Made by a program: the position numbers and the translations under genes | Source of the DNA: Fibrobacter sp. | GTDB taxonomy: Bacteria; Fibrobacterota; Fibrobacteria; Fibrobacterales; Fibrobacteraceae | Length of the DNA stretch: 34,508 nt | Direction of reading: 5' to 3' | NCBI GenBank assembly: GCA_031271785.1 | Contig: JAISUZ010000099.1 | Coordinates: 1 to 34,508, forward strand | In this document: positions 24,600-29,057 of the stretch, one piece after another | Numbering within the stretch: the first letter of the stretch is position 1 | How the letters are laid out: every line of letters starts with the position of its first letter | The notes under the pieces: model-generated | The model's database searches: none | Told to the model about the DNA's origin: nothing | What the model saw: the letters and a program-made list of their open reading frames with translations, nothing else

Positions 24600-25424
24600 T
24601 TAAATGAAAAGGATCCGGTTGAGTTTCGCGCGGTATTCCCAAGTCAGCGCGTGCTTGGGCCCGAGAACGCCGAAAAGCGTAAGCATGGCGTTTTTTGCCG
24701 CGCCGCCGTTCCACTCGGCATTCATCTGCAATAATTCGAGAAACGCGTCAAACGCTTCCCGATAATTTTCCCGAACGGCAAAAACACAAGCCTTGTGATA
24801 AAGCGTTTCTTCAGTACCTTGAACGTCTGTTTTCAGACTTTCCACATGAAAATCCATCAGTTCCAAAAGCGATTTCGCTTCTCGGTATTCCGTTTCTTTT
24901 TCGGAAAACCGACTTAAAACGGTTTTGGCTTCGTCAATTCTCGAAAGCCGGATATAAACTCTCGCAAGCAACAGAAGCAGGCTTTTATCTTCCGGATTTT
25001 GGGCGATGAGGGCTTCTGCCCGCGGGAGCGCGTTCTCCGGAGAGCCACTTTCCATCAAGCGGATCACTTCAAATTTGGCTTGCTCTTCGGGGCTCATGAA
25101 AAACGGCTTTAAGCGGTCTTTAAATTCGGCTTCGGACAGATTGCCGTTCAGAACTTCGGCGATTTTACCTTCGGCGATCACCCGTGTGTCCGGGAGCGCG
25201 GCGATTCTAAAGACCTGAATGAACTGCCGGTTTTCAGGGCTATCCAAATCCACTTTCCCTAAAGAGAATTGAAGTTCTGCGGAGAGGCGTTCGAGAGTTT
25301 CGGCGGCGGTAAAACTTTCCGGAAACTGAGCGGAAGTGAATGTGATCACCACCGGCTTTTCGGCGGAAGCCTGCATGACATCCGGTTCAAAATTTTCAAG
25401 AGTTACGGCAAATGTTTGCGACAT
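24600..25424 (-). CDS. CnoX/YbbN-like thioredoxin-TPR protein without redox cysteines
   Basis: Residues 1-110 look like a thioredoxin fold: KPVVITFTSAQFPES in the position of the active-site strand, LGKVDLDSPENRQFIQVFRI, then a cis-proline region ALPDTRVIAEGKIAEVLNG. Residues 115-274 are helical repeats of TPR type (NALPRAEALIAQNPEDKSLLLLLARVY-like segments). This is the layout of CnoX (YbbN), a holdase that hands clients to GroEL. The WCxxC motif is absent and replaced by TSAQFPES, so a chaperone or scaffold role is likely rather than thiol exchange. No signal peptide is seen, so it is cytoplasmic. It heads the group with the M16 peptidases and has a GGGGTGA ribosome binding site. Confidence 0.75.
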   Translation of the reverse strand: MSQTFAVTLENFEPDVMQASAEKPVVITFTSAQFPESFTAAETLERLSAELQFSLGKVDLDSPENRQFIQVFRIAALPDTRVIAEGKIAEVLNGNLSEAEFKDRLKPFFMSPEEQAKFEVIRLMESGSPENALPRAEALIAQNPEDKSLLLLLARVYIRLSRIDEAKTVLSRFSEKETEYREAKSLLELMDFHVESLKTDVQGTEETLYHKACVFAVRENYREAFDAFLELLQMNAEWNGGAAKNAMLTLFGVLGPKHALTWEYRAKLNRILFI

Positions 25425-25524: not shown

Positions 25525-26064
25525 ATGACGGCAATTTGTCCTTACTGTAAATCTAAGGTTTCGGAGCTTCATTTTCACAGCTTTCTATTGCGCCTTTGCC
25601 CGCATTGTTACTCCGCTTTTTTCCCGAGTAACAAAACCATGGCATTCCGTAATGAAATTTTCGACAAAACGCGGGAAATTTGGCTCTCGGTGTTAGAGCA
25701 AAACAAAGAGTCCCGGGTAAAAGAACCCGCGGAAGTTTTGTGCATTGATCACGGTCGGAAACTCGTGGACGGCACGCTTCCCGATTACGGGATTCCCGGA
25801 AAAGTCACTACCTGCTGCGAAATGTTTCATTTGCCGCCGGAGCTCCTTTCTCAAATTTTAAAACGCACTCTCGTTTCCCCTTCCGTAAATTACACGAAAT
25901 CAAGAGGAGCTTCCAAACAATTCATTTTGGTTCGCCTGATGACGGCGCTCGTACGCCCGTTCGATGCCGTTTTCCGGTGGATATTCGGTTCAAAAGAAGA
26001 AGATCCTTTTGAATCCATGCAATACGACATGAAATTTAAGGATGTTTTGGGACCGCGTCCATGA
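25525..26064 (+). CDS. zinc-ribbon protein of unknown function
   Basis: This 179-residue protein starts with a four-cysteine zinc ribbon, CPYCKSKV and LCPHCYSAF (Cys5, Cys8, Cys25, Cys28). A middle region with DHGRKLVDGTLPDYGIPG and a CC pair follows, then a basic helical C-terminus (LVRLMTALVRPFDAVFRWIF) that could be membrane-associated. I recognise no family beyond the ribbon. It is the first of four genes that overlap in sequence (ATGA to the next), so it is probably a cytoplasmic partner of the two membrane proteins and the permease behind it. No ribosome binding site is visible. Confidence 0.75.
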   Translation: MTAICPYCKSKVSELHFHSFLLRLCPHCYSAFFPSNKTMAFRNEIFDKTREIWLSVLEQNKESRVKEPAEVLCIDHGRKLVDGTLPDYGIPGKVTTCCEMFHLPPELLSQILKRTLVSPSVNYTKSRGASKQFILVRLMTALVRPFDAVFRWIFGSKEEDPFESMQYDMKFKDVLGPRP

Positions 26065-26771
26065 AAAAAAGTTCGAGAATTTTAGCGGGGCTTGCCTTTT
26101 TAGGGCTCCTTATCTTTTTAGTCGTTCCGAATCAAGAATTTTATGAGACGCTTTTCCCGCTCCGGGAAAACACGGAAATCGTAGTTTACGACGATCAGGC
26201 GGACGGCGGCAACTCTGTTGCACAAATGACGCTCCTTGATTCTTCGCTTGTGCTTGAATGCAAATTAAACGCCAATACGGGGCGCGACGCATGGTGCGGT
26301 CTGATTTGGACGTTCACCCATGAAAAAGAATATCATTATCAAAACTGGACTTTTGTCGATAGCCTTATTTTGGAAACGGAAACCATGGGAATTTCCGAAA
26401 TCCTGATTAAAGTCTGGACTTACGACCCCGATGTAACGCTCGAAACAGACAAAAAAACATTCCGCCTGCTCATCAAAGAAGTGCCGCTGAAAGAAGGGCA
26501 AAAAAGAATTGCGATTCCGTTTGAATCGTTTTACACACCCGACTACTGGTACACACAAACGAAAACCAACCGGAATTTAACCAAACGCCACCAGGAAACC
26601 GTTGCCAAAGTGGAAATCACCCCGGGCTGGCATACTCCGAGAGATTCGGTGTTCCGGATTTCAATTCGGAATTTCTCCGCTAAAGGAGTCAGTAATGTTC
26701 CGTTCGGAATTCTCCTCGCGTATCTCACCATTCTTATGATGGCGGCCATCGGACTCCGGCAAAAAAAATGA
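26061..26771 (+). CDS. membrane-anchored beta-rich protein, first paralogue
   Basis: This 236-residue protein has transmembrane helices at both ends (about 8-24, LAGLAFLGLLIFLVV; about 215-232, FGILLAYLTILMMAAIGL), leaving a domain of about 190 residues that is probably periplasmic. The domain has the alternating pattern of a jelly-roll: DDQADGGNSVAQMTLLDSSL, DSLILETETMGISEILIKVW, FESFYTPDYWY. It is clearly paralogous to the next gene, in the same order of motifs. The domain resembles carbohydrate-binding sensor domains in general shape only; no ligand residues are evident. Its ATG and stop overlap both neighbours (ATGA). Confidence 0.75.
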   Translation: MKKSSRILAGLAFLGLLIFLVVPNQEFYETLFPLRENTEIVVYDDQADGGNSVAQMTLLDSSLVLECKLNANTGRDAWCGLIWTFTHEKEYHYQNWTFVDSLILETETMGISEILIKVWTYDPDVTLETDKKTFRLLIKEVPLKEGQKRIAIPFESFYTPDYWYTQTKTNRNLTKRHQETVAKVEITPGWHTPRDSVFRISIRNFSAKGVSNVPFGILLAYLTILMMAAIGLRQKK

Positions 26772-27514
26772 AACACATCGCCTTTATTTTCGGTTATCTT
26801 CTTTTCCTTGCGGTTTTAGCGGGGATTTGGTGGATGTTCCGTACTTCGACGGCGGTACTTTACCCAAGCGCCCAACCGCTTTCCGTATTTCAGGATTCCA
26901 TAGAAGGCGGCAGTTCGCGCGCAACGTTTTCAGAGAACGATTCTTTGCTTTCTATTGACATTCTCGCGCGATCCGGTTCCGCTTCGCCTTACGCCGGCGT
27001 GAAACTCGCTCTCGTTCCGGAAGCAAAACAGGCTTTCGGAAACTGGCTGAATCTTTCGCGTTACGATTCTTTAAGTATTGAAGTAGCGACTCGCCGCATG
27101 CCGCAGGTTCTTTTAACCATTCTCACTTCGGATCCGGAACGCGCCTCCTCATGGCTCGACCCTTTCGGCCCGCGCTTTGTACAGCACACCGTTAAAACCG
27201 GCCGGAATTTTCAAAAAACAACCGTGGCGCTTTCCGATTTCCGGGTACCGGAATGGTGGTTTTCCTTTCATCAAATCCGCACGCCCGATGAATTCACTTA
27301 TCTGGAACGCGCCTTTGGTTTTCTTGTTCTGAACGGTTTCGGAACCATGCTTGGAATTCCCGATGAAATTCAGGTGAAAAAAATTGAGGTTTTCGGAGTA
27401 AATCGCCGTTTAGGTTCCTTTCTTCTTGTTATAGCTCTTGCGGGAAGTTTTATTTTTATTGTAACGGCTTACCGGAACGTACGCCGCCCACATGATAAAC
27501 CGAAGGAGAAATGA
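26768..27514 (+). CDS. membrane-anchored beta-rich protein, second paralogue
   Basis: This 248-residue protein repeats the layout of the preceding gene: an N-terminal transmembrane helix (about 4-22), a beta-rich domain with FQDSIEGGSSRATFSENDSL, YDSLSIEVATRRMPQVLLTI and LSDFRVPEWWF, a C-terminal transmembrane helix (about 220-238) and a basic tail (RRPHDKPKEK). Shared positions with the first paralogue include the DGG.S/EGG.S turn, the DSL.(L/I)E strand and the (Y/E)WW/YWY region. The two products may pair as a heterodimer. It is coupled by ATGA to the gene before and overlaps the permease start. Confidence 0.75.
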   Translation: MKHIAFIFGYLLFLAVLAGIWWMFRTSTAVLYPSAQPLSVFQDSIEGGSSRATFSENDSLLSIDILARSGSASPYAGVKLALVPEAKQAFGNWLNLSRYDSLSIEVATRRMPQVLLTILTSDPERASSWLDPFGPRFVQHTVKTGRNFQKTTVALSDFRVPEWWFSFHQIRTPDEFTYLERAFGFLVLNGFGTMLGIPDEIQVKKIEVFGVNRRLGSFLLVIALAGSFIFIVTAYRNVRRPHDKPKEK

Positions 27515-28665
27515 TGCCGAATCGTTGGAATCTTGACAAAATCATGCGCTTGGTTTTCATTACGGTCATTATCGTTTTAAGTGTGTGGCTTTTAAGTTAT
27601 TTAAGTGAAGTGTTAATCCCGTTTGTGGTAGCGCTCTTGGTCGCTTACATTTTGGATCCTGTGGTAAACCGCATTCAGAAAAAAGTAAAATACCGGATTA
27701 TCGCGGTCGTTCTCGTGCTGCTTGTTCTGAGCGGAATCTTTGCATTGTGTCTCGCTCTTTTTGTGCCGCGGGTATCCCGCGAAGTCGGTTATTTGGGAAC
27801 TCTTATTTCAAGACTTGCGTCGGATTCCTCCTGGTCGCAGCGCATCAGCGAATACGTTCCGGCAAGTATTTGGGAACAAATTCAAGGATTCCTTTCTCAA
27901 GAGCATTGGGTACAGGCCATGCAGTCTCTTGATTTTTGGCAATCGGTAGAATCAATCCTCGGAAAAATTTTGCCGGGCGCTATGGGCGTTCTCTCCGGAA
28001 CAGCCACGTTCTTTATTTGGATTTCGGGCGCGGTTTTAATTCTTCTTTACATGGTTTTCATCATGAAAGATATGCCTAAAATCCGTCTGAAAGTTTTGTA
28101 TTTCATTCCGCACCGTTACCATGAAGAAGTAAAAGTCTTTGCTCAAAAAATCGACGAACTGATGAACGGCTATTTCCGGGCGCAGATGGTAGTCGCCATG
28201 ATTGTCGGCGTTTTGTTTGCCATCGCTTTCAGCATTATGAAACTCCCGATGGGTTTTATTTTCGGAATTTTTATCGGCGTGTTAAACATGATTCCTTACT
28301 TACAAATTCTCAGTATTCCGCTCGCGCTGATTCTCGGCATTGTTTACGCTCTCGATACGGGAATGCCTTTTTGGGAAGTCGCGATAATTATTACGGCGAT
28401 TTACGTGGTGATACAGCTCATACAGGATTTGTTTATCGTCCCGAACATCGTAGGGAAAAGCATGAATCTTCCGCCGGTCGCCATTCTTCTTTCCCTCTCC
28501 GTTTGGGGCAAACTCCTCGGATTTCTAGGGCTTGTGGTCGCCATTCCCTTTACCTGCCTCGTTTTGGTTTACCTCGATAAGTTCAAGCAGAATAAGTCGG
28601 CGCAGGCATTTTTTATCGCCTCGGAAAATGAGGTCGAACCGCCCAAGGAGGATACATCCCCCTGA
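27514..28665 (+). CDS. AI-2E family (PerM-like) permease
   Basis: This inner-membrane protein of about 383 residues shows the AI-2E/UPF0118 pattern. Helices come first (LVFITVIIVLSVWLLSYLSEVL, LIPFVVALLVAYILDPVV), then an extramembrane region, then the conserved C-terminal block KLPMGFIFGIFIGVLNMIPYL, a downstream proline-glycine segment (FIVPNIVGKSMNLPPVAILLSL) and GFLGLVVAIPF. Members have been linked to export of small signals or to sodium-proton exchange; the substrate is not readable here. The start is one of two adjacent ATGs (27511 or 27514). AAGGAG at 27503-27508 suits 27514 better. It is the last gene of the overlapping four-gene group. Confidence 0.9.
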   Translation: MPNRWNLDKIMRLVFITVIIVLSVWLLSYLSEVLIPFVVALLVAYILDPVVNRIQKKVKYRIIAVVLVLLVLSGIFALCLALFVPRVSREVGYLGTLISRLASDSSWSQRISEYVPASIWEQIQGFLSQEHWVQAMQSLDFWQSVESILGKILPGAMGVLSGTATFFIWISGAVLILLYMVFIMKDMPKIRLKVLYFIPHRYHEEVKVFAQKIDELMNGYFRAQMVVAMIVGVLFAIAFSIMKLPMGFIFGIFIGVLNMIPYLQILSIPLALILGIVYALDTGMPFWEVAIIITAIYVVIQLIQDLFIVPNIVGKSMNLPPVAILLSLSVWGKLLGFLGLVVAIPFTCLVLVYLDKFKQNKSAQAFFIASENEVEPPKEDTSP

Positions 28666-28760: not shown

Positions 28761-29057
28761 ATGAACAAACAAGATCTCGTCGCTGCGGTTCAAAAAGAAG
28801 CCGCTCTTGAAACTAAAGCTGCTGCCGAACGTGCAGTGAACGCTGTGATCGACGCTATCGCTGCCGGCATCAAAAAAGACGGTAACGTGCAATTGATCGG
28901 CTTTGGTACTTTCCAGGTGAAAGAACGCAGCGCACGCATGGGTCGCAACCCGAAAACCGGTGCTCCGCTCAAGATCAAGGCTTCCAAAACTGTTTCCTTC
29001 AAAGCCGGTGCCGGTTTGAAAGAAGTAGCCAAGAAAACCAAGACGGCGAAAAAATAA
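28761..29057 (+). CDS. HU family DNA-binding protein
   Basis: This is a nucleoid protein of 98 residues that bends DNA as a dimer. It begins MNKQDLVAAVQKEA, has the flexible DNA-binding arm region with GFGTFQVKERSARMGRNP and the signature RNPKTGAPLKIKASKTVSFKAG, and ends in a short lysine-rich extension (KEVAKKTKTAKK). The start has AAGGAG at 28749-28754. Codon use is biased towards a restricted set, consistent with high expression. A bidirectional terminator follows. Confidence 0.97.
   Translation: MNKQDLVAAVQKEAALETKAAAERAVNAVIDAIAAGIKKDGNVQLIGFGTFQVKERSARMGRNPKTGAPLKIKASKTVSFKAGAGLKEVAKKTKTAKK

Follow-up and report, generated by a model that had tools for sequence, protein, structure and literature searches.

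Paired membrane-anchored sensor-like proteins, related to AraC-type regulators, are encoded with an AI-2E family permease in Fibrobacter

What brings a small zinc-ribbon-like protein (A), two membrane-anchored proteins (B and C) and a permease (D) together in four overlapping genes? Such a unit lies at positions 25525-28665 of the window, the 34 508-nt stretch of Fibrobacter sp. DNA analysed here as a whole. The junctions are ATGA between A and B (at 26061) and between B and C (at 26768), and ATGATG between C and D (at 27511); all ORFs and overlaps were confirmed. An initial annotation, made from the sequence alone, took the strict coupling of the genes as a sign of one complex, perhaps a permease with a heterodimeric periplasmic sensor or binding subunit. 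Coordinates of the features are given in Table 1.

Table 1. Genes, domains and neighbours of the A-D locus (positions in the window)
Feature	Position	Strand	Description
T, divergent neighbour of A	24600..25424	-	274 aa; kept beside A in relatives
Gene A	25525-26064	+	179 aa, soluble, two putative zinc sites
Gene B	26061-26771	+	236 aa, TM1 - CBM11/CIA30-like domain - TM2, without output domain
B jelly-roll domain (residues 26-210)	26136..26690	+	probably periplasmic; AF2 model and PDB matches
Gene C	26768-27514	+	248 aa, TM1 - CBM11/CIA30-like domain - TM2, AraC domain lost; AF2 and alignment with AraC-bearing orthologues
C jelly-roll domain (residues 25-212)	26840..27403	+	probably periplasmic; AF2 model and PDB matches
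C TM2 (residues 213-239)	27404..27484	+	AF2 model, hydropathy
C cytoplasmic tail and stop	27485..27514	+	g3, g5 and g9 orthologues continue from here into linker and AraC HTH
Gene D	27511-28665	+	384 aa, AI-2E family permease; PF01594
HU gene	28761..29057	+	next 3' of D in family loci whose stretch extends that far

The window belongs to family f1, whose 56 named loci come from Fibrobacter, Fibrobacteraceae or Fibrobacteria. The common f1 locus, T< A> B> C> D> HU (T being presumably a thioredoxin/TPR-like protein, named by eye), was present in 98 of the 111 f1 genomes and occurred twice in one of them; no B locus was fetched for the others. Genes A and B, B and C, and C and D were adjacent in every stretch holding both members, with 25 of the 90 C-bearing stretches stopping short of D. 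B and C overlap in 84 of 90 loci examined; A and B overlap or lie no more than 10 bases apart in 87 of 89 loci, as do C and D in 62 of 65 (overlap lengths are upper bounds because longest-ORF starts were used). Given this recurrence, the overlaps in the window are not due to chance. A phylum-wide search with B as query gave matches in 123 of 167 genomes. In one contig (G043:C93, locus L034) an inverted duplication contains B twice in identical form, which probably reflects an assembly error.

B and C are diverged tandem paralogues with a beta-rich domain between two transmembrane helices, as proposed initially. B as query finds C in its own genome (E 5.5e-6, 22% identity), and B is recovered at 4.8e-34 by a profile built from C-type sensors. 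Hydropathy gives two hydrophobic segments in each (at 4 and 213 in B, at 4 and 215 in C), and both C-termini are positively charged. The AF2 models are confident and show one beta-rich domain between the helices (pLDDT 90.3 and pTM 0.83 for B; 94.6 and 0.88 for C). Judging by hydropathy, charge and the AraC-bearing orthologues of C described below, both domains are probably periplasmic; Cys67 and Cys79 of B, each present in 97 of 99 B proteins, are in line with a location outside the cytoplasm. The B proteins range from 208 to 278 aa, and an output domain was found in 0 of 99. Neither B nor C has a Pfam family match at E 1 or better, and none of the window proteins A, B and C had an NCBIfam match above chance.

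The initial annotation had suggested a fold search for carbohydrate-binding or sensor domains, and CBM11 was indeed among the leading matches. Both predicted models have the jelly-roll fold of CBM11 and CIA30. The best match was CIA30/NDUFAF1 (Z 17.4, rmsd 2.7 over 163 residues for B; Z 17.5, rmsd 2.8 over 163 residues for C), followed by CtCBM11 (Z 16.0, rmsd 3.6 over 164 residues; Z 16.7, rmsd 3.3 over 161 residues); CBM30 and CBM29 rank after these for both models, and PDB matches were also obtained by Foldseek. The lipocalin fold of VtrC was absent among the matches listed. The predicted fold is common to B, C, the CBM11 of Lic26A-Cel5E and CIA30/NDUFAF1; however, identity is 8-14%, the CBM11 (PF03425) and CIA30 (PF08547) sequence profiles do not match B or C (Pfam, E <= 1), and the B/C domain is held between two membrane helices. 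The likeness of the models is thus one of fold and not family membership. The assignment rests on predicted models, since a sequence search of the sensor profile against solved structures gave a chance match only (E 0.83).

Sequence relatives of C lead to transcription regulators. In genera g3, g5 and g9 the C orthologues carry a full AraC domain after TM2 (HTH_18 at 4.3e-24, 7.9e-23 and 2e-23), so that C is orthologous to AraC/XylS-type regulators with a membrane-anchored sensor, whereas the tandem HTH (HTH_18) of such regulators is missing from C of the window. Outside f1 nearly all loci read, across other Fibrobacterota families, have the sensor joined to an AraC domain; matches were found in 24 of 56 genomes, with 52 counted as strong after 17 lower-scoring matches (E 6.4e-17 and worse, frames of 188-873 aa) were left out. 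A third paralogue in the genome of the window (L033:6103-7428, contig C54) combines the sensor domain with a GGDEF diguanylate cyclase. Since C continues into an AraC domain in g3, g5 and g9 and the sensor occurs in AraC and GGDEF fusions, B and C represent the sensor modules of a family of transmembrane regulators, and C of the window is a regulator minus its output. The sensor or binding role first suggested for the pair is therefore borne out as probable, and the view that no described system resembles it fails for C, an orthologue of AraC-type regulators that has lost its DNA-binding domain here. Of the two observations named at the outset as evidence against a single complex, scattering of the four genes in other genomes and a match of the middle proteins to a characterized unrelated family, each was made in part.

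Several other members of the sensor family were observed. Loci L048-L052 and L147-L186 represent a large Fibrobacterota family of transmembrane CBM-like AraC regulators, often near glucanase or cellulase genes. At L172:68-2318, two tandem overlapping sensor-AraC genes stand beside an efflux-pump-like operon and offer a possible picture of an ancestral pair. A few members have other outputs (L177 has a GGDEF-like end, and the protein of L180 is longer), and the sensor-GGDEF protein has likely counterparts in other f1 genomes, as judged by frame length. Many long frames among the 17 dropped matches resemble enzymes with CBMs.

Scored for the AraC HTH, the 90 C proteins comprise 4 with the full domain, 36 with the second half only and 50 with none; G091, G104 and G150 (E 0.0013, 0.0012 and 0.022) are borderline among the 50 and were counted as ‘half’ for the trees. 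Neither Pfam nor a family-built profile found the HTH in C of the window, and no separate AraC domain split off from C was found in its genome (95.5% complete), in G146 or in G145. Losses were assumed to be irreversible because the AraC fusion is general outside f1. On this assumption both the B+D tree and the T+A+B+D+H tree require 10 truncations, falling to 8 and 9 when branches below 95 are collapsed so as to minimize losses. Sequence comparison thus indicates that the AraC domain was lost repeatedly in the C lineage, by 8-10 separate truncations on the trees. A recent in-frame deletion is seen in G111 and G119, where ∼50 codons with the half domain are gone and the last residues are kept; B of these genomes is almost identical to B of G071. 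In G089 (L090), TM2 was lost along with the HTH, which fits decay in that genome.

The sensor of HTH-less C has a median dN/dS of 0.098 (range 0.032-0.161, 16 close pairs) and that of half-HTH C a median of 0.068 (27 close pairs), the pairs sharing lineages and not being independent. Values in HTH-less and half-HTH pairs are, respectively, 0.067 and 0.074 for B, 0.028 and 0.039 for D, and 0.049 and 0.035 for A. The half-HTH remnant has a pooled dN/dS of 0.142 versus 0.083 for its own sensor (28 pairs); the remnant is thus less constrained than the sensor, though still constrained. These ratios suggest that HTH-less C is most likely functional, with its sensor under purifying selection.

C has lost its DNA-binding domain, yet the sensor pair has been kept by selection; hence the pair must work without binding DNA. 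We consider it fairly likely that B and C, descended from a one-component regulator, form a sensor pair in which the DNA output of C was lost and the ligand state is relayed to a membrane partner, possibly D. The ancestor would have been a one-component regulator with the arrangement TM - CBM11/CIA30-fold sensor - TM - AraC DNA-binding domain. The ancestral pair was probably co-component-like, with B as a sensor without output and C coupling its sensor to an AraC domain in the cytoplasm; in the window and many relatives C would have shed this domain while selection retained the sensor pair. B and C, presumably as a heterodimer, would most likely bind a cell-envelope or saccharide ligand together and pass its state to another membrane protein. 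Such a partner would be the simplest target, and D, nearest and co-encoded, is the first candidate. Counting against this proposal, B of g4 persists without C and apart from D, with D and A standing alone there; the best single fold match, CIA30, is an assembly factor rather than a sensor; and C of G089 lacks TM2, a loss that fits decay in that genome. A bolder version is tentative: a transmembrane transcription factor would have been turned at least eight times into a DNA-free subunit, and the CBM-like sensor and its output-less twin would directly gate or stabilize an AI-2E permease. One sensor would then have moved from gene control to transporter control.

Because CIA30 heads both fold lists, a role of B and C in assembling or stabilizing a membrane protein (D or another), like that of CIA30/NDUFAF1 for complex I, is a real rival, in which the ancestral AraC domain became useless. 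The survival of B without C and the conserved Cys pair of B would suit such a role. We nevertheless think it unlikely, as CBM11 follows close behind CIA30, a common fold shows no function and the closest relatives by sequence act in signalling.

Protein A has no hydrophobic segments by hydropathy. Its putative zinc sites (C5, C8, C25, C28 and C73, H76, C97, C98) are invariant at all eight residues in 89 of 89 orthologues, and its score against Zn_ribbon_TFIIB (PF13453), 16.2 bits, is below the cut-off of 22 bits; the zinc protein named initially is thus zinc-ribbon-like at a sub-threshold score. Being soluble, A might replace the lost HTH as a separate cytoplasmic partner through which C still controls transcription. 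Wherever the HTH of C is lost or halved, A belongs to the operon; g3 and g9 keep the full HTH in C and have B, C, D and HU together but A at another place. In g2 and g4 it follows a sigma-like gene (by eye) in six of seven loci read. On the other hand, A accompanies two of the four full-HTH C proteins, g5 combining A in the operon with a full HTH, and A is also present without C in g2, g4 and f2; we regard this route as distinctly unlikely. As a separate observation, A lies directly 3' of the sigma-70-like gene (by eye) at g2/g4 loci L278-L283, hinting at a possible action together with RNA polymerase.

That the permease and a heterodimeric binding subunit evolved together as a fixed complex would agree with the conserved order and overlaps, but the strict coupling initially proposed does not hold throughout. 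The order is kept across most of f1, whereas in genera g2 and g4 the genes A, B and D lie apart and C was not found in 13 genomes (two also without B, several <90% complete). The g2/g4 orthologue of D (46-50% identity) is on a contig other than that of B in 5 of 5 genomes tried; A, not found in G051, is present in the other 9 of 10 tried, on contigs other than that of B where B was found. B itself is located after a NifU-domain gene. As it persists in g4 without C and apart from D, B needs neither. A unit built or broken in such steps speaks against an obligate four-part complex, and C derives from a transcription regulator; we therefore hold a fixed complex to be very improbable. Three g4 loci (L036, L037, L038) show a three-gene cluster of B, the NifU-domain gene and a small AT-hook-like gene.

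Least probable of all is that C is a decaying regulator retained solely by its operon position: the repeated loss of the output domain and the missing TM2 in G089 would agree with this, but pseudogene decay is disfavoured by the low dN/dS of the HTH-less sensor.

D is, as first proposed, a member of the AI-2E family (PF01594 at 3.8e-50, residues 14-357), with TqsA (7nb6, 8.6e-13) as PDB match, and is the single match in the genome of the window (E 1e-8). Literature searches gave no described AI-2E permease in one unit with a B/C-like pair. To our knowledge, few regulators of this permease family are known.

The phylum Fibrobacterota is known for cellulose breakdown, and Fibrobacter degrades fibre. 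Of the 52 strong sensor genes outside f1, eight have a GH9 or GH5 gene within 3 kb, where genome counts predict 1.15 (P 1.6e-5, a value too small because some loci, with paired GH9 in G026, G027, G028 and G035, are probably orthologous). Among the 64 nearest neighbours of sensor genes (60 of 78 listed neighbours and 4 read earlier, with counts not mapped gene by gene), Pfam found 6 GH16, 4 GH9, 3 GH5 and 2 GH2; other neighbours were GH94 and a GH9 with CBM30 and CBM11. The wider sensor-AraC family forms a set of candidate plant-polysaccharide sensors, undescribed in our literature searches. No glycoside hydrolase was found among the genes conserved around the f1 operon, so a saccharide ligand for B and C is carried over from these relatives.

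RsgI anti-sigma factors of Clostridium thermocellum have CBM parts. They are membrane proteins with an outside substrate-sensing part, as B and C probably are; the window locus showed neither an anti-sigma domain nor a sigma factor. Closer parallels are the co-component systems VtrA/VtrC and ToxR/ToxS, which are described in PMC9214523 as overlapping genes for two membrane-anchored periplasmic partners, one with a DNA-binding domain. The overlap and the two membrane-anchored, probably periplasmic partners recur in B and C; the cytoplasmic DNA-binding domain is matched in g3, g5 and g9 and absent from B and C of the window. These systems have a lipocalin-like fold and an N-terminal HTH, in contrast to the CBM11/CIA30-like fold and C-terminal AraC domain of the B/C family. 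By analogy, the full-length form of C probably acts like a co-component system. Searches of the open PMC literature found no such system, and Fibrobacter is unmentioned in passages of PMC10766802.

It is rare to see every stage in which a regulator loses its output while selection maintains the sensor. Here a single conserved locus presents the output domain whole, halved or missing, which makes the role of an output-less sensor directly testable. If B and C act on D, they would provide an input on an AI-2E permease.
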